Assembly (NCBI RefSeq): GCF_003633895.1
Contig: NZ_RBID01000011.1
Span: 310,001 to 374,000 of the forward strand
DNA length: 64,000 bases
Source of the DNA: Vogesella indigofera
GTDB lineage: Bacteria > Pseudomonadota > Gammaproteobacteria > Burkholderiales > Chromobacteriaceae
Direction of reading: 5' to 3'
In this document: piece by piece, positions 56,053-64,000 of the stretch
Layout of the letters: each line of letters starts with the position of its first letter
How positions within the stretch are numbered: the first letter of the stretch is position 1
Notes under the pieces: generated by a model
What the model was told of the DNA's origin: nothing
The model's database searches: none
Seen by the model: the letters and a program-made list of their open reading frames with translations, nothing else
Made by a program: the position numbers and the translations under genes

Positions 56053-57273
56053 ATGTCTGATATCAACAAAGTCGTACTTGCCTATTCCGGCGGCCTCGAT
56101 ACTTCGGTGATCCTGAAGTGGCTGCAAGACACCTACCAGTGCGAAGTGGTGACCTTCACCGCCGACCTGGGCCAGGGCGAAGAACTGGAACCGGCACGCC
56201 AGAAGGCGCTGCAGTTCGGCATCAAGCCGGAAAACATCTTCATCGACGACCTGCGCGAAGAATTCGTGCGCGACTTCGTGTTCCCGATGTTCCGTGCCAA
56301 CACCGTGTACGAAGGCGAGTACCTGCTGGGTACCTCCATCGCCCGTCCGCTGATCGCCAAGCGCCAGATCGAGATCGCCAACCTGACCGGTGCCGACGCG
56401 GTATCGCACGGCGCGACCGGCAAAGGTAACGACCAGGTGCGTTTCGAGCTGGGCTACTACGGCCTGAAGCCGGACGTGAAAGTGATCGCGCCGTGGCGCG
56501 AGTGGGACCTGCTGTCCCGCGAAAAACTGCTGGCCTACGCCGAGAAGAACGGCATTCCGGTCGACATGAAGCACAAGAACGGTGGCGCGCCTTACTCGAT
56601 GGACGCCAACCTGCTGCACATCTCTTTCGAAGGCCGTCACCTGGAAAACCCGTCGGCCGAGGCCGAGGAATCGATGTGGCGCTGGAGCGTGTCGCCGGAA
56701 GCGGCACCGGATGCACCGGAATACCTGGACGTCGAATTCGAGCGCGGCGATATCGTGGCGCTGAACGGCGTGCGCCTGAAGGCGCACGAAGTGCTGGCCA
56801 AGCTGAACGAGCTGGGCGGCAAGCACGGCATCGGCCGTCTTGATCTGGTGGAAAACCGCTACGTCGGCATGAAGTCGCGCGGCTGCTACGAAACCCCGGG
56901 CGGCACCATCATCCTCAAGGCGCACCGCGCCATCGAGTCGATCACCCTGGACCGCGAAGTGGCGCACCTGAAGGACGACCTGATGCCACGCTACGCCAGT
57001 ATGATCTACAACGGCTACTGGTGGGCGCCGGAGCGCAAGGCGCTGCAGACCCTGATCGACTACACCCAGCAGAGCGTCAACGGCTGGGTGCGTCTGAAGC
57101 TGTACAAGGGCAACGTGATCGTGGTCAGCCGCGATTCGAAGACCAACTCGCTGTTCGACATGAACATCGCAACCTTCGACGACGACGGCGGTGCCTACAA
57201 CCAGGCCGACGCCGGCGGCTTCATCAAGCTGAACGCACTGCGCATGCGCATTGCCGGCCGCATGAACAAGTAA
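56053..57273 (+). CDS. argG: Argininosuccinate synthase
   Basis: A 406-residue type I enzyme. The ATP pyrophosphatase motif is [13 protein letters not shown] near the N terminus; [13 protein letters not shown] and [13 protein letters not shown] are also typical. Known reaction: citrulline + aspartate + ATP to argininosuccinate. AAAGAGAAA precedes the ATG at 56053. It is followed by a strong terminator and is the last clearly native gene of the window. Confidence 0.97.
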
Positions 57274-57607
57274 GCCGGACTGATTTGGCTCATGAAACCG
57301 CACCTCTTCGGGTGCGGTTTTTTATTGCCGCTTTTATAATCTGCGGCCAACCTTACCGATCCGTATGCAGGGGGACAGCATGATCTGTGTACCAGCTTTT
57401 TTTACTCAAAGAAATTACATTTCAGCTTAAGACATATGGCTTTATTGGAGCGGGAGGGGGTAGGCTGTTTGTGTTTAACAAATAAGCAGGGGCAGTGCGT
57501 AGTGCTACCTTTCCAAGCCTCAAACACGTCAGGTGCCCATGCCTGCAACCGACCGCTTCGGTCGACGATTGGCCCCCTCCCCATGGTGGACATGGCTGCA
57601 GATCGGC
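57274..57607. other. Junction between native chromosome and the foreign end region
   Basis: About 330 bases with the argG terminator, the last DUS-like motif copy (57342-57351), then AT-richer DNA up to the IS1182 left end. Small reading frames on both strands (for example 57436-57711) cross the IS boundary or lack ribosome sites and were not accepted. No tRNA or attachment site was recognised. Confidence 0.55.
57296..57323 (+). terminator. Rho-independent terminator after argG
   Basis: AACCGCACC (57296-57304) pairs with GGTGCGGTT (57311-57319), loop TCTTCG, followed by a T-run. It lies 22 bases after the argG stop. Confidence 0.92.
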
Positions 57608-59221
57608 GAGGCTGTGTGGAAACGCAGCACCGGTTAATGCCAAAGTGGTTCGCACCACCTCTTGCCGGGTTATCCAGTTCGGTCTCAGTGCGAACAAGGC
57701 TATTTAGATGAGTAAAAGGCTCCCTTCAGGCCTTTACTGCCGCCATTAACCCTGCAAATCCTATGATCTTCATGACTCGCTTCAAGTTGTAGGCAAGTAC
57801 GTGCAAGCTCATCTCGGTGCTGACATGTTCCGGGGTACGTGTCAGGAAGTGCGTCGCCCCCATCCAGTCTTTCAATGTCCCGAAGGGATGCTCCACAGTC
57901 TGCCGCCGTAGTTTCATCGCACCAGGCTGGATATCCAGTCGCCTTTGCATGGCTTCCAATGTGGCTTCGTGCTCCCATCGATTGACACGTCGATAATCAC
58001 TTGGCGTACACTTTTCTTTGATCGGGCAACGCGGGCAGTCTGAGCCCCAGTAACGATTGATCTGCAGGCCAGACTTAATCCGGGCAAATCGCCATTTCAA
58101 GCGACTGCCTGCCGGGCAGACGTATTCGCCAGCGACCGGATCAAACACGAAGTCCTCTTTGTCGAAGCGCCCTTCGGCCTTCGCGCCAGAGGTCATCGGT
58201 TTTGATACCAGCGCAGTAATGCCGGCCTCTTCACACTTTTGAATTTCTTCGCCTTTAAAGTAGCCACGATCTGCAATGGCTTGCATGCCCAAGACATCCA
58301 GTGCCGACTGCGCTTGTATGGCCATTTTGGCCAGTTGGCTGCGATCACTGCCGCTATTGGTAACTTCATGGGTAACGATGAGATGGTGCCGGGTATCGAC
58401 AGCGGTCTGCACGTTATATCCCACCAGTCCACGGTTGGTACTGGTTGCCATGGCGCGGGAGTCTGGGTCGGTCAAAGAAATCTGCGCAGAGGGCTCTTGC
58501 TCTAACTGCGCCTGGATCTGCTGCAGTCTTTCCATGCTCTTTTTCAGAGTGGCCATCTTTTGCTGAATTCGCGTGGTTCGCGCTTCCGCTATCTCTGAAG
58601 GCTGGCGATCTGCGGTTTCCAGTGCACTGAGATAACGCGCAATGCAGTGATCAATTTCCTGCATCCGCTTCTCCAGTTTGCCACGCGTGAAGTTGCGGTC
58701 GTGAGCATTTACCGCCTTGAACTTGCTGCCATCAATGGCGACGACAGCGTGCGTGAATAGCTTCAGCTCCCAGCACAGCACAACGAACTGCTTGCAGACA
58801 TTGCAGATACCGGTGCCATTGTCTCGTCGAAAGTCGGCAAGCGTTTTAAAGTCGGGTGCAAGCCGTCCCAGTAGCCACATCAGCTCAATGCTGTGCAGAG
58901 CCTCCCGTTCGAGGCGGCGACTGGATGGAGTCCGGTTGAGGTAACCGTAGATGTACAGCTTGAGCAAGATGGCTGGATGGTAAGACGGCCGCCCCGTGGC
59001 TTTGGGATCGACGCCGGCAAAGCCAAGCCCGCGCAGATCGAGTTGCTCGACAAAGGCATCCACGATGCGCACCGGGTTGTCTTCACCGACATAGTCATCA
59101 AGCAGCACTGGCAAAAGTGCGGCCTGCGACCTATTCTTTCCTTGAACGAACCGTGTCATTGCGCAACCCTCGGCATGCCATTAGGAACATCATAGACACG
59201 AAGACGTTTTCACACGGCCTC
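57608..59221 (-). mobile_element. IS1182-family insertion sequence, complete
   Basis: A 1614-bp element. The left end GAGGCTGTGTGGAAACG (57608-57624) and the right end read inward, GAGGCCGTGTGAAAACG (59221-59205), match at 15 of 17 positions. It is flanked by the 4-base direct repeat CGGC (57604-57607 and 59222-59225), which fits a target-site duplication. It holds one intact transposase gene, so insertion was probably recent. Confidence 0.85.
57726..59159 (-). CDS. IS1182-family transposase
   Basis: A 477-residue DDE transposase, intact. It starts MTRFVQGKNRSQAALLPVLL, has the N-terminal DUF772-type region (ATGRPSYHPAILLKLYIYGY), an acidic site around AVVAIDGSKFKAVN, a second at QAIADRGYFKGEEI and the C-terminal segment RQTVEHPFGTLKDWMGA with the likely catalytic Glu. 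A cysteine cluster (CPAG, CPRCPIKEKC) is typical of this family. It fills most of the element between the inverted repeats. Confidence 0.93.
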   Translation of the reverse strand: MTRFVQGKNRSQAALLPVLLDDYVGEDNPVRIVDAFVEQLDLRGLGFAGVDPKATGRPSYHPAILLKLYIYGYLNRTPSSRRLEREALHSIELMWLLGRLAPDFKTLADFRRDNGTGICNVCKQFVVLCWELKLFTHAVVAIDGSKFKAVNAHDRNFTRGKLEKRMQEIDHCIARYLSALETADRQPSEIAEARTTRIQQKMATLKKSMERLQQIQAQLEQEPSAQISLTDPDSRAMATSTNRGLVGYNVQTAVDTRHHLIVTHEVTNSGSDRSQLAKMAIQAQSALDVLGMQAIADRGYFKGEEIQKCEEAGITALVSKPMTSGAKAEGRFDKEDFVFDPVAGEYVCPAGSRLKWRFARIKSGLQINRYWGSDCPRCPIKEKCTPSDYRRVNRWEHEATLEAMQRRLDIQPGAMKLRRQTVEHPFGTLKDWMGATHFLTRTPEHVSTEMSLHVLAYNLKRVMKIIGFAGLMAAVKA

Positions 59222-59450
59222 CGGCCAAAACAGCCATTCAGACACCAAGTGAACAATGACTGGTTGTTGCTACCAAGTGGTCATTCAATGCCCTGTGACT
59301 ACGAGCCTATGGAGTGGTGTTAACTCCAACTCCAGCTATCCCGCTATTGGGGGAAAAATTTGACCTACCCTTGTCGATTACCAATTCCCATACTGTCTTT
59401 ATGACCTGCGTATCGGTCACCCACGTCAAGAATTCGATCAGGATGGTGTT

Positions 59451-59723
59451 ATGAGAGACTCATGGTGCAAACCGGTTCGGGTTCGAACCGGCAATATCGT
59501 TAGCGGTGGGGCTGCCCGCAATGTGCGGATTGCCGCGTTGGGGGGCATGGGTGAGATTATTGAAGAAGTTGCCAGATCGGCCGTCGAGCAGGGGTTGGCT
59601 CGTGCCGATACAGCGGTTCGCAAGCGACTTCTTCGCGTGGTCAGCGGTGCGAGAAGTATGCCTGCAGATGCCGATTCCCCCATAGCCCCGGTTAGCCGGG
59701 GTTTATATTTGGTTCTTATATGA
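59451..59723 (+). CDS. Small hypothetical protein between two IS elements
   Basis: A 90-residue reading frame with a reasonable ribosome site (AGGATGG, 7 bases before the ATG). The middle part (ALGGMGEIIEEVARSAVEQG) is predicted to be helical. No family is recognised. The last codons run through a hairpin terminator (59686-59701), which is odd for a complete gene and suggests either that the true 3' end has been lost or that the frame is not a gene. Confidence 0.35.
   Translation: MRDSWCKPVRVRTGNIVSGGAARNVRIAALGGMGEIIEEVARSAVEQGLARADTAVRKRLLRVVSGARSMPADADSPIAPVSRGLYLVLI
59686..59711 (+). terminator. Hairpin terminator inside the end of the small reading frame
   Basis: CCCCGG (59686-59691), loop TTAG, CCGGGG (59696-59701), then TTTATATTT. 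It has good terminator form on the plus strand. Confidence 0.6.
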
Positions 59724-59738
59724 ACGCGCCCCGTCTTG

Positions 59739-60314
59739 CTAGGTAAGATGGGCCTTCAGGAAGTCCTGCCAGTCGTAACTACTGGACTGACTCCCTTGGT
59801 CGGAATGCACCAGCACCTCCTGCTTGGGCTGACGTCGCCATACCGCCATCAACAAGGCATTCAGCACCAGTTCCCTATCGATGCGTGATTGCATCGACCA
59901 GCCAATCACCTGTCGCGAGAACAGGTCGAGCACCACGGCCAGATATAGCCATCCTTCATGCGTGCGGATGTACGTGATGTCAGTCACCCAGGCTTTATTC
60001 GGTGTATCCACGGTGAACTGGCGCTGCAGGTGGTTCGGCGCCACCACCGCGGGCCTGCCACGGTAATGCCCAGGACGGCGGTGATAGCCGGTTTGTGAGC
60101 GCAGGCCCTCCCGTTTCATCAAACGTGCCACATGATGTTTACCACAGCGTTCGCCCAATGCCTGCAGGTCGTCATGCACCTTGCGGTAGCCATAGATACA
60201 ACCACTCTCCAGCCAGGCCTGTTTGATTTGCCCCAACAAGCGCTGGTCTTCGCTGGCGCGAAGTGAATGCGGGGAAGCTTTCCAGGCGTAGTAGCCACTG
60301 GGGTGCACAGACAT
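59739..60314 (-). pseudogene. IS3-family transposase OrfB, C-terminally truncated
   Basis: Encodes 191 residues from the first ATG, and the frame stays open upstream to the frameshift site near 60410. An HTH_21-type segment (CIYGYRKVHDDLQALG) and an rve integrase core are seen with the first two catalytic aspartates (KAWVTDITYI; VLVHSDQGSQ). The protein stops after DFLKAHLT, so the third catalytic residue (Glu, normally about 35 residues after the second Asp) and the C-terminal region are absent. It cannot be an active transposase on its own. Confidence 0.85.
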
Positions 60315-60373
60315 GACGCGACATAGACGTCGAACAGGAAACTGCTGCTCATGAGTCCGGATGAAGGCATGCC

Positions 60374-60652
60374 TTACCCGGACTCCTTGGCAAAGTATGC
60401 GGCGGCCTTTTTTAGGATGTCGCGCTCCTCGGTCATCCGTTTCAGCTCTGCCTTGAGACGGCGGATTTCAGCTTGCTTGTCAGCAGATTCGGCCGGTTTC
60501 GCGCGCTTGGGGTCGTAGCGTTTCAGTCATTGATACAGGCTTTGGGCAGATACGCCGAGACGGCTGGCGACTTCGGCGACGGGATAGCCACGTTCGGTAA
60601 CCTGTTTAACGGCTTCAATCTTGAACTCTTCGGGGAAACGCTGCCTGCTCAT
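60374..60652 (-). pseudogene. IS3-family OrfA with internal stop codon
   Basis: Starts MSRQRFPEEFKIEAVKQVTE at 60652 with AAGGAGGTG upstream. The HTH_Tnp_1 region continues to ASRLGVSAQSLYQ and then reads TGA (60527-60529 on the plus strand) where the family has TGG (Trp of SLYQWLK). After the stop the frame goes on normally through LKAELKRMTEERDILKKAAA to TAA at 60374. The single-base nonsense change has inactivated it. Confidence 0.85.
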
Positions 60653-60855
60653 GACACCTCCTTGTAGGGCCTAGTGTGAGGCTCACGAGGTATCTAGGAA
60701 AGGATGGGCGATTCAATGATACCTATTGGAATGTAATTTATTGAATGCATCTGTTGGTTCACATGAAAGACTTGCTTAAATATCCGCGAAAAAATGCGAT
60801 TTATAGGGCTTTGTTGTTATTTCGCAACGTCGTCATGAAAAATTAGTCATCAATG

Positions 60856-60896
60856 CCATGTCGTTGGTTGGGGTCACGCAATCGGCATGGTTTTTT
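60856..60896 (+). terminator. Terminator-like hairpin with six Ts
   Basis: CCATGTCG (60856-60863) pairs with CGGCATGG (60883-60890) with one wobble, loop 19 bases, followed by TTTTTT. No gene precedes it on the plus strand, so it may end a non-coding transcript. Confidence 0.45.
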
Positions 60897-60937
60897 CTTT
60901 GAAATCAATGAGGTGGCTATCTGTTGCAAGCAGATAA

Positions 60938-60970
60938 AAAACAGGGCCGCTCAGTGATCTGCCCTGTTTT
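60938..60970. terminator. Bidirectional hairpin terminator
   Basis: AAAACAGGGC (60938-60947) pairs perfectly with GCCCTGTTTT (60961-60970). On the minus strand it continues into more Ts (TTTTTTATC), making that direction the stronger one. Confidence 0.7.
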
Positions 60971-60993
60971 GGTGCAGTTTTCAGTTTTATGTG

Positions 60994-61079
60994 CTGAACT
61001 TTCAGTAACTATGAGTCCCTACAGTTGTAGGGAGGCAAAGTTAGTGAAAACCTCCTGCCTTGCCAGGTAAGGCTTTTTT
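60994..61079 (+). ncRNA. Candidate structured RNA ending in a terminator
   Basis: Tandem stem-loops: CTGAA/TTCAG (60994-61005), CCCTACA/TGTAGGG (61017-61032), GGAGG/CCTCC (61031-61055) and GCCTTG/TAAGGC (61057-61073) followed by TTTTTT. No promoter was identified. It is about 590 bases upstream of a gene with an RT-like motif; known RT-based systems often carry a structured RNA nearby, but the link here is speculative. Confidence 0.3.
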
Positions 61080-61667
61080 CATTTTTGTGTGCTTGTAACG
61101 TAGCTGAAGAGGCGCAGAGTTCCTGAAAAAATCTGACTTTTCTGCGAAGTTGTTGAACAGAATCTGAGGAATTAGCTCCACTTGGTGGATGCGACCGTTT
61201 CCCTTGGCTGTGGCAGGCACGTTGTCACTTTTCTTCTGCAGTTCCTGCATGTACCTCATACAGTAGACCTCTTGGGGCAAAGCCGTGCCTGCCGTCCGGC
61301 AAAATTTTCTGGAGTTCGGCCGAAGAGGTCTTCCACTCCATCTGCCTTGAATGTCCGTTCAGGGCTACATTCCGGTCATTTCCCCTGCGCCATAGCCGAA
61401 AGGCGGAGTTCTGATTTGGGAGCGCGCACTCTCGACCCGATGCAGCCCTTCGTCACTGCAACGGAGCAACGACAGCAATCTGAAAGGAACAGTCACCCAT
61501 TGCAGCAGCTTATGCTCTGTTACAGTCGTTCAAAATGCTCTAGCAATGGTGTATTTTCTGATGAAAGTACTATGGCATGATGGGGTCAAGGTTGTATTGA
61601 ATCTGGGACAATCCAGACGGCTTGTTAAGATATGCCCACAAGGTCGAAGAAATTGGGAGGAAGAAAC

Positions 61668-64000
61668 GTGGATCGGTTTGACATTGGTGAGGTACTTGCG
61701 AAGTCGCCTTTAGATGAAGTAGTACGGCGCCTCGGCATCGAGACCGAGAGGCGGGGAAACCAACTCAGTGCAATCTGCCCATTTCACCAAGACACTCGAC
61801 CGTCGCTGCGTTTTTTTCCAGCGGACAGCAGATCTCCCGAGCATTTTCATTGTTTTGCGTGTGGCGCACACGGCCATGCGATCGACTTAGTTAAGCAAGT
61901 CCAAAGTGTAGATTTCTTGCCGGCGGTGCAATGGCTTTCGCAGAGCTTTGGCATCAAAGACATCCGGCGACAGCCAAAGAATCAGCCAGATCGCAAAGGC
62001 GCCATCGAAGGCGCACAGGCATTCGCGCTTCGGATATTTGATGAGCACCACGATACACAACGATTCCGGACTTGGTGCGAAGAGCGAGCCTTCGAGGCTG
62101 ATTTCCTGTACCGCCAGGGGGTGCGCTGTGTGCCTCACTCGGTTCTCGTGCAAGAGTTGGCGTCGAGAAGCACAGGCGAGCGTGTTGAGCTGATCGATGG
62201 CCTGCTTGCTCTCGGCCTGATTAAGCGCTTGCAACAAGCATCCCATTCGGATCAGTACAAGCTTAGCTTTCCAGATCAATTCCAATTGCAGTTCCAAGAC
62301 TACTTCCACGACGGGCGTGTTTTGATCCCGATCTATGGTGGTGCCGCAAAGCGACCGGAACTGGTTGGCTTCGCGGGACGGGCACTGCTGGCTGTGCCGC
62401 CAGAAGGAGTCCCCAAATACTTGTTAAGCCCAGGGTTTCAAAAAGCCAAATACCTGTTCAATGCGCCGAGTGCCTTTTCGTCAGCAACGGGGGAACTGAG
62501 GGACGGCGACACTGCAACGTTATATCTCGTGGAGGGCTTCCTAGATGCCCTACGCCTGCAGGCGTTAGGCTTGAACGCAGTGGCGCTTATGGGCACCTCA
62601 CTCAGCAATGGGCAGTTAGAGCTGCTGAAGCACTTCGTTGATGGCCTGCCACAGGGCAAGGCTGAGTTTGTACTTAGCATCTTCCTCGACAACGATAAAG
62701 CTGGGTTTGCAGGGACGGATCGGTTGGTGCGACGCCTGCTGGGTTTGTCCGGAGTTGATCTGCGCTGGATTGGCCTTGATGGCTATACCAACCGTCCGCT
62801 TGGCAAGGATCCGGACACTTGTCTAAAAGTGCTTTCGAGCCGAGTGGAGGCAACGGACTGGTTGCAGGACTTCAATCGGCCGGCCGAGGCAGCCTTGCTG
62901 GTATCCGAATTGGGAGACATTGATGCCTCCGAACTGCCGAACGAACGCTGGGCTGAACTGAATTCCAGTGCTCGGGAGCGGGCGGTGTACAAGACTGCGA
63001 CGACTATTCGACAGGTTCGTGGCTCGCGGCCTTTACAGGGCGTGATTCAGCGACTGAAGGCTACAGAAGAGAGTTGGGCTACCGAACTTTGTGAATTGCT
63101 GGGTACCGTTGAAGGAACACAGCGGAATCGGAGTTCCGTGTTGTTTCTCCAGGGCTTGGAAGAGCGCCTCTCTCATGCCCGAAATTTGGCGTATCACGGA
63201 TCGCGCCGTGGCGAGCTCCCATGCGATGAAGAATCTTGGCTGACTTTGGATTTGAGTGCGCGCCTGTTTGATCGCATTGCCCAACAACGATTGGCAGAGC
63301 GTGGCTGGATCCAAGCCGCCCCATATGATGCAGTCCACCTGCCGCGCAAGCTTACGGCTAATACTACGGTACTGGATGACCCGCGTCGCAAGGTTATGCC
63401 ACACCCGGCCGATTTGCACTTGCAACAGTTGCTGCTGAATGAACTGCTGACGCAGCGGCACGACTTGCTGAGTGTCGAAGGCAAGACCTTCTCGGAATGG
63501 ATTCCTGCTGTTCGCTGGTTTTCTGCCACCCGCAAAGTCGAAGTGACTGGGCCGTTTGACGACCTCCCCGCTGCAGAAGGGGAGGAGACCACATTGAGTT
63601 TTGGCTACCAAGTAGATATGGATGTGCTGGAGGGCAGCAAGACCCCGTCAGACCAAGGCATGTTCAGGCCCTACGGGCAGTGTTGGCGCGACTTCATGAG
63701 CAGTTTGAGCAGGCAGTGCCACGCTATCGGCGGTCGAGTGCATGTGCTTCGACTGGACGCCCAGCGCTACTACGACTCCATTCAGCGTTATGTGGTACGC
63801 GATGCACTACTGGACTCGATCAAAGGGGCTTTGACGGGAACCGGGGCGGGCATCTTCGGCCCACTACTTGGCCGGAGCGAAACAGCTAGCACGCAGGAGG
63901 TCGCAGAGGCTCTGGTCGACAAGGTTTGTAACTTCCTCTTTGGCCACCAATACCGGCCCCCAAATACAAGAGCTGTCGGCTCTAGTCTGGATGCGATTGG
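61668..64000 (+). CDS. DnaG-like primase (CHC2 zinc finger + TOPRIM) with C-terminal reverse-transcriptase-like region, partial
   Basis: About 777 residues are visible and the frame is open to the window end. The GTG start at 61668 has GGAGG 7 bases upstream. Domain 1 is a CHC2 zinc finger: C37 and H40 in CPFHQDTRPSL, C62 and C65 in FHCFACGAHGHAID. Domain 2 is TOPRIM: E289 in LYLVEGFLDALRL and D341/D343 in LDNDKAG. About 350 further residues match nothing I know, then VHVLRLDAQRYYDSIQRYVV (D697 to V712 region) resembles RT motif A, following FGYQVDMDVLEGS and GMFRPYGQCWRDF. The YxDD motif would lie beyond the window. GC content and codon use differ from the native genes. Confidence 0.75.
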   Translation, partial: MDRFDIGEVLAKSPLDEVVRRLGIETERRGNQLSAICPFHQDTRPSLRFFPADSRSPEHFHCFACGAHGHAIDLVKQVQSVDFLPAVQWLSQSFGIKDIRRQPKNQPDRKGAIEGAQAFALRIFDEHHDTQRFRTWCEERAFEADFLYRQGVRCVPHSVLVQELASRSTGERVELIDGLLALGLIKRLQQASHSDQYKLSFPDQFQLQFQDYFHDGRVLIPIYGGAAKRPELVGFAGRALLAVPPEGVPKYLLSPGFQKAKYLFNAPSAFSSATGELRDGDTATLYLVEGFLDALRLQALGLNAVALMGTSLSNGQLELLKHFVDGLPQGKAEFVLSIFLDNDKAGFAGTDRLVRRLLGLSGVDLRWIGLDGYTNRPLGKDPDTCLKVLSSRVEATDWLQDFNRPAEAALLVSELGDIDASELPNERWAELNSSARERAVYKTATTIRQVRGSRPLQGVIQRLKATEESWATELCELLGTVEGTQRNRSSVLFLQGLEERLSHARNLAYHGSRRGELPCDEESWLTLDLSARLFDRIAQQRLAERGWIQAAPYDAVHLPRKLTANTTVLDDPRRKVMPHPADLHLQQLLLNELLTQRHDLLSVEGKTFSEWIPAVRWFSATRKVEVTGPFDDLPAAEGEETTLSFGYQVDMDVLEGSKTPSDQGMFRPYGQCWRDFMSSLSRQCHAIGGRVHVLRLDAQRYYDSIQRYVVRDALLDSIKGALTGTGAGIFGPLLGRSETASTQEVAEALVDKVCNFLFGHQYRPPNTRAVGSSLDAI

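Follow-up and report, generated by a model that had tools for sequence, protein, structure and literature searches.

What might a bacterial protein do that carries both a primase core and a reverse transcriptase (RT) on one chain? The question is raised by a stretch of the Vogesella indigofera genome under study (G000:C1:310001-374000; the whole 64,000-base stretch is referred to below as the window), at the right end of which a giant gene begins. An initial annotation of the window had placed a CHC2 zinc finger, a TOPRIM domain and an RT-like segment in one open frame from 61668, and this was borne out, as the frame has no stop and the catalytic positions are invariant in all five sequences aligned. 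The frame overshoots the window by 5,323 bases. Judging by profile matching, its product is almost certainly a member of the catalogued UG29 class of UG/Abi defence RTs, and combines a DnaG-type primase core, an RT and a probable C-terminal nitrilase domain in one chain.

Results

The single stop-free frame runs on the + strand from an ATG at 61632, through the end of the window, to G000:C1:379323 (2,563 amino acids counted from the ATG). GTG 61668 is the better start, because GTGGATCG is kept there in all five sequences whose upstream parts were aligned (a set without the distant one from Sphingomonas) and because the relatives align from the GTG, which gives a protein of about 2,551 amino acids and places the 5' part of the gene at 61668-64000. 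Residues are numbered here from the ATG, so that residue n begins at window position 61632+3(n-1).

The RT_UG29 model of PADLOC matched this protein at 2,726.6 bits, covering residues 14-2550 and model positions 2-2279 of 2280, and all three relatives scanned also matched it nearly end to end (1,899, 2,734 and 2,751 bits). Apart from this model and a DnaG-like one, the PADLOC matches were weak (UG19, 40.4 bits; Drt1a, 30.4 bits). RT_UG29 is listed in PADLOC under DRT. The full-length match, together with the low ratio of nonsynonymous to synonymous substitution (dN/dS) in each module given below, puts the frame and its domains far above chance. The UG classes were reportedly named by Mestre et al. 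in 2022. The protein is thus a new member of a class that is already catalogued, and nothing tested sets it apart from that class, hence it is less new than first supposed. Of the primase-RT protein originally proposed, the architecture stands, but the description was incomplete, since a probable nitrilase lies past the window and the class RT_UG29 had been catalogued.

Five sequences were aligned, namely the Vogesella protein and those of an Azonexus metagenome-assembled genome (MAG), Paraburkholderia sp. C35, the Polaromonas naphthalenivorans plasmid pPNAP05 (WP_011798575.1) and a Sphingomonas aerolata plasmid, the last of which stops at the record end and is the most distant of the five (29% identity). 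Down to this identity the domain order was the same in all five full or near-full sequences, and the catalytic residues of the three enzyme-like regions were invariant. In the closest pair of relatives (L003 and L005) dN/dS was 0.14 for the primase, 0.11 for the RT, 0.20 for the middle region and 0.13 for the nitrilase region, as compared with 0.55 for the linker (residues 1830-1985). These values indicate that the primase, RT and C-terminal regions are all under purifying selection in the sole pair close enough to measure, as synonymous sites were largely saturated in three other pairs tried.

The N-terminal part has the layout of a bacterial DnaG. The CHC2 zinc finger (residues 19-109, 61686-61958, + strand; Pfam PF01807, E 1.1e-15) has the ligands C49, H52, C74 and C77, and is followed on the same strand by the DnaG polymerase-core region from R229 to F269 (62316-62438, with PKYLLSPGF from 62412), which aligns with DnaG of other genomes, by the TOPRIM domain (residues 298-370, 62523-62741; PF13155, Toprim_2, E 8.9e-8, with Toprim_4 at 296-375, E 5.7e-7) and by the DPD motif (residues 393-395, 62808-62816), placed by alignment with DnaG. 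All four zinc ligands and the six TOPRIM-site acids (E301, D305, D353, D355, D393 and D395) are invariant in the five UG29 sequences. Alignment with DnaG sequences from six further genomes, one of which (L012) begins at an internal start and so is without the finger, shows that UG29 shares with them the finger, the KYL.S stretch in the polymerase core, the acids of the TOPRIM domain and the DPD motif. The NCBIfam dnaG model matched residues 20-399 at 136.5 bits, below its equivalog cut-off of 283.6. UG29 also differs from DnaG in having the RT where the helicase-binding domain would stand; no such domain was recognised in Pfam at E<=1, in keeping with the early remark that DnaG-type primases normally continue into such a domain and this frame does not. 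Likewise, no archaeo-eukaryotic (AEP-type) primase was matched in Pfam at E<=1, where the DnaG core was found instead.

PADLOC further includes PDLC03800 (RTasDnaG-like), a model for a separate, stand-alone protein resembling DnaG that it lists as a partner of RTs. Four UG29 proteins scored 194, 135, 248 and 245 bits on it, and two DnaG of other genomes 159 and 151, so that three of the four UG29 proteins exceeded both. These scores suggest that UG29 and the stand-alone RT-associated protein may be related, and that two-gene versions of the primase-RT fusion may exist.

An RT and a TOPRIM domain in one defence protein are also found in retron Eco2, where, in the parts of the reports available, the TOPRIM is described as the effector (PMC12405507; mentioned in PMC13275509). 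By this precedent the TOPRIM of UG29 could be a nuclease effector, with the nitrilase being regulatory or a second effector. We regard this as quite improbable, since the motif order (CHC2, polymerase core, TOPRIM, DPD) is that of DnaG, NCBIfam and PADLOC both see DnaG, the TOPRIM belongs to a DnaG core lying before the RT, unlike that of Eco2, and no Rfam match of any kind was found in L002, the locus that holds the Vogesella gene.

The RT begins within the window (63660-64000, + strand) and was matched by Pfam RVT_1 at residues 677-868 (E 1e-5). In the protein scan its score, 25.8 bits, was under the cut-off of 29.6, and in the genome scan, with the neighbouring pieces (PF00078 at G000:C1:373969-374235), it rose to 33.5 bits, above the same cut-off. 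Motif A, LRLD709AQRYYD715, runs from 63747 on, with D709 at 63756. A lack of motifs B and C downstream would have refuted the initial annotation, and both are there. Of motif B, GIPQGP (residues 790-795), only the first two bases fall inside the window, and motif C, YVDD (838-841), is wholly outside it. D709, D715, G790, I791, Q793, G794, P795, Y838, D840 and D841 are invariant in all five sequences, while P792 is replaced by alanine in the Polaromonas sequence (GIAQGP). From the primase and RT motifs together we infer that the UG29 protein could both prime and copy.

The best match of the UG29 RT profile in the PDB was DRT1 (9yfd, E 0.0042), and this suggests a kinship of the UG29 RT to the class 3 RT-nitrilases (DRT1/UG1 and UG5). 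DRT1 (UG1) resembles UG29 in having an RT followed by a long middle and probably also in its C-terminal nitrilase triad, and differs in being 1,229 residues long and in being without a primase core. According to the available part of its description (PMC13275509), DRT1 uses one of its own serines to prime DNA synthesis that needs no template, its defence requires both the RT and the nitrilase cysteine, the nitrilase is controlled in its assembly and activity by DNA adducts, and DRT1 activity requires a T4 single-stranded DNA helicase. Three results weigh against the kinship. The PDB ranking was a near tie, with a group II maturase at E 0.013 and Drt3a at E 0.018; PADLOC ranks UG19 (40.4 bits) above Drt1a (30.4 bits) for UG29; and with a UG29 profile reaching from the RT to the end of the protein, no chain in the PDB scored E<=0.01.

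S898 is conserved in seven of seven UG29 sequences (the five above, a sixth, partial one from a Zoogloea MAG, L004, and the fragment L046 from DQ115810.1), and is a candidate protein primer. Against this, S898 faces an arginine of DRT1 and not its priming-serine region in all three MAFFT modes, and the priming serine of DRT1 is without a clear counterpart in UG29. In a rival reading the DnaG core is a sensor, which on binding nucleotides, replication intermediates or single-stranded DNA of the phage would trigger a protein-primed RT-nitrilase as in DRT1. The zinc fingers of DnaG contact template single-stranded DNA, which counts for such a role, as does the conservation of S898. The protein priming of DRT1 and its requirement for the T4 helicase, as given in the available part of the source (PMC13275509), point the same way. 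However, even the relative with 29% identity retains the polymerase-core motif and all six acids of the TOPRIM site, and dN/dS is low in the single pair for which it could be measured. This exceeds the apparent need of binding, so that we find a sensor unlikely, although it is a real rival.

The RT is followed by a middle region some 1,000 residues long, a variable linker and a C-terminal part of about 580 residues. The linker, which precedes the nitrilase region and varies in length among the relatives, was seen by eye to contain imperfect repeats (GEIVEQVLA..SVPDVAE.APDLAQS; residues 1835-1945, G000:C1:377134-377466). The C-terminal part carries the motifs VLPE2091, RGK2165KY and LIC2235SE, of which Glu2091, Lys2165 and Cys2235 are invariant in the five-sequence alignment. 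When its profile was compared by hhalign with one of DRT1 nitrilases from three further genomes, the two paired at the motifs of the Glu and the Lys with E 0.0018 and a probability of only 15% (an unrelated profile gave E 0.46). In the L-INS-i alignment the UG29 Glu, Lys and Cys share columns with the triads of all 30 canonical and all three DRT1 nitrilases. The profile score against these 33 sequences was 34.9, which was reached by none of 100 column shuffles (maximum 25.4) and compares with 19.0 for the reversed profile. Against the 30 canonical nitrilases alone the score was 29.2, again reached by none of 100 shuffles (maximum 21.9).

Several results speak against a nitrilase. E-INS-i aligned only the Glu, and neither the Lys nor the Cys, with the nitrilase triad. 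Columns 250-1395 of the UG29 alignment, scored in three overlapping windows, reached 29.7-31.3 against the canonical nitrilases alone, where the C-terminal part reached 29.2, although against the set including DRT1 these columns scored just 22-23 as compared with 34.9. No nitrilase family was found in Pfam at E<=10 in a search of six pieces, the same search giving two chance-level matches (SAM-like, 0.089, and HEAT, 0.043), and the PDB sequence search gave no nitrilase, with chance matches from phmmer (best E 0.48) and none from the profile. AlphaFold models built with four and three sequences had predicted local distance difference test (pLDDT) values of 36.9 and 32.5, too low for use of the fold. 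With these points weighed, the C-terminal region is still likely to be a nitrilase effector, as the shared triad columns and the profile scores suggest.

The gene had been described as lying in an island-like region, and the region proved to be a Tn7-like transposon of 22,094 bp, in which UG29 is the first long gene from the left. It is convergent with Avs1b and Avs1a, after which come tniQ, tnsC, tnsB and tnsA (the Pfam score of TnsA, 23.2, is below the cut-off of 26.5). The ends were sought by comparing the left side (57,000-61,660 of the window) with the region to the right of tnsA for inverted ends and a 5-bp duplication. The left terminal inverted repeat (61026-61049, + strand) starts with TGTAGGG and matches the right end (G000:C1:393096-393119) at 18 of 24 bases, and the target duplication ACAGT stands at 61021-61025 and again at G000:C1:393120-393124. 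An end-sequence repeat resembling a second TnsB site lies inside the left end (61105-61128, + strand, 18 of 24 bases), and its counterpart within the right end matches weakly, at 14 of 24. When the right side was shuffled by single bases 300 times, the best pair had 17 of 24 matches (in 4 of 300) and none reached 18 of 24. A looser threshold gave three candidate end pairs as compared with 3, 0, 1, 3 and 5 in five shuffles; since the shuffles give 0 to 5, this threshold proves nothing alone and the claim rests on the best pair. With tnsA, tnsB, tnsC and tniQ, TGT..ACA ends and a 5-bp duplication, the carrier is a Tn7-like transposon.

The G+C content is 0.55-0.57 in the element as compared with 0.65 further out, and is also low just to its left (0.47-0.59 from 57,000 to 61,000), in a stretch where two transposases lie outside the element (57729-60314). 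One of them, a DDE transposase (DUF772, DDE_Tnp_1; 57729-59159, - strand) just beyond the left end, resembles by eye an IS1182-family transposase immediately downstream of UG29 on pPNAP05 (L036:17788-19281). Within the element, Avs1b (L002:9890-15683, that is G000:C1:379890-385683, - strand) is read in three frames, matching model parts 1-96, 79-222 and 249-1922, and its N-terminal part is therefore interrupted, the gene being broken or the assembly in error.

Defence genes adjoin UG29 in three of the four loci scanned (the neighbour scan did not extend to L003 and L004, whose flanks are short). They are Avs1 in Vogesella, the Lamassu genes LmuA, LmuB and LmuC in Sphingomonas, and a NACHT/STAND protein in Polaromonas, where a DNA/RNA non-specific endonuclease is a further neighbour. 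The fourth locus counts against a defence setting, as the two proteins scanned beside the Paraburkholderia gene (L005) match no defence model. No gene recurring beside UG29 was seen across the four loci. Over L002 no Rfam match was found, and the upstream alignments revealed no common RNA structure, from which we do not claim its absence; beyond the last 60 or so bases before the gene, similarity is confined to L003, L004 and L005. As neither a recurring partner gene nor an RNA family or common upstream structure was found, UG29 is likely a one-gene system.

UG29 resides on the Tn7-like transposon, on two plasmids and on a contig with an open reading frame (ORF) that resembles a tyrosine integrase by eye. 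Its presence on mobile elements would also fit a replication or transposition protein, a primase and polymerase serving these elements and not defence. This is highly improbable, given that the carriers differ, that tnsA, tnsB, tnsC and tniQ are present apart from UG29 (tnsA under its cut-off), that the class is listed under DRT and has defence neighbours in three of the four loci, and that a nitrilase is without an evident place in replication. Of the two roles offered at the outset, a defence or a mobile-element replication module, the neighbours thus probably favour the former and give little support to the latter.

When 84,980 species genomes were scanned with a pattern that finds close relatives only, three UG29 loci emerged. 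Of 399 genomes of the order, 382 had a match to the RT_UG29 model, and the best match listed besides Vogesella was to a DnaG-sized frame (205 bits, positions 5-390). The part from residue 481 on was matched in two of 398 genomes of the phylum, one of 369 of the class and one of 385 of the class of another genome, G425 (the three sets overlap), always in Vogesella or as a remnant in G425. This remnant (G425:C1, L047:2318-2911, - strand) is the C-terminal part of a Sphingomonas-type UG29 beside a transposase-like ORF. Among 135 plasmid records searched with tblastn, one, from Polaromonas, covers at least 80% and that of Sphingomonas 61%, and the other 28 of the 30 listed match the primase part only. 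Among 86 phage records, the best eight listed comprise DQ115810, which is UG29, and seven matches to the primase part. DQ115810.1 ('Cyanobacteria phage AS-1 contig_3', 2,438 bases, unannotated) holds a UG29 RT fragment with 49% identity (L046:33-1331), and is either a defence gene carried by a phage or bacterial DNA under a wrong label. In three scans of viral contigs no UG29 appeared, the yield being six distant RT fragments.

Discussion

With its class assignment and neighbours, UG29 very probably functions in defence. Against this stands the literature search, which returned no experiment on any UG29 and no text on the class, the whole-word matches being unrelated by title. By analogy with DRT1, UG29 could be a stand-alone, single-gene anti-phage system that is carried by mobile elements and acts by abortive infection, a proposal to which we assign an even chance. 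In such a system the DNA made by the RT would set the assembly state of the UG29 protein and in this way gate the nitrilase, which upon infection would destroy an essential small molecule or make a toxic one and so bring about abortive infection. That DNA synthesis gates the nitrilase is again an analogy with DRT1, and for this step we hold the arguments for and against to be balanced.

The primase core would act on the same DNA, either by making short RNA primers that are extended by the RT or by starting a second strand on the RT product. The nearest parallel is DRT7 (UG10), in which an RT and a primase are likewise joined in one defence protein (PMC13213688; PMC13174585, as far as available). 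In the available part of the RT classification paper, dnaG appears only among the genes that now and then lie close to RTs, and class 10 is the one credited with a fused primase, UG10/DRT7, whose primase is AE_Prim_S-like (PMC8934634). It was proposed early on that the known fusions of RT and primase have another primase fold than the Vogesella protein, and the comparison agrees, as the primase of DRT7 is of the archaeo-eukaryotic type, whereas that of UG29 is a DnaG/TOPRIM core, N-terminal, with a probable nitrilase added. Moreover, no title or abstract among the literature matches listed describes a defence protein in which an RT is combined with a primase of the DnaG or CHC2 kind. DRT7 is said, via a preprint cited in the part available of PMC13213688, to use protein as both primer and template in making duplex-like DNA. 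By analogy with DRT7, the primase may feed the RT, a step that we hold as tentative and somewhat less than evenly probable.

A stricter version would have the RT prime itself through its own chain, the DnaG core writing an RNA primer, the RT of the same chain extending it, and the RNA-primed DNA switching the nitrilase. We consider this doubtful, yet its consequences would be considerable. In the parts of the literature available, the defence RTs characterised to date either use amino acids of their own to begin DNA or act together with a small RNA. If true, self-priming would be a start of immune DNA unlike these protein-primed and RNA-templated routes, and would put DnaG to use outside the replication of chromosomes or elements. 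With a DnaG core beside an RT in one gene, the division of work between primase and RT is directly testable, and UG29, with its probable nitrilase, may offer a second route to the substrate of the RT-nitrilases.

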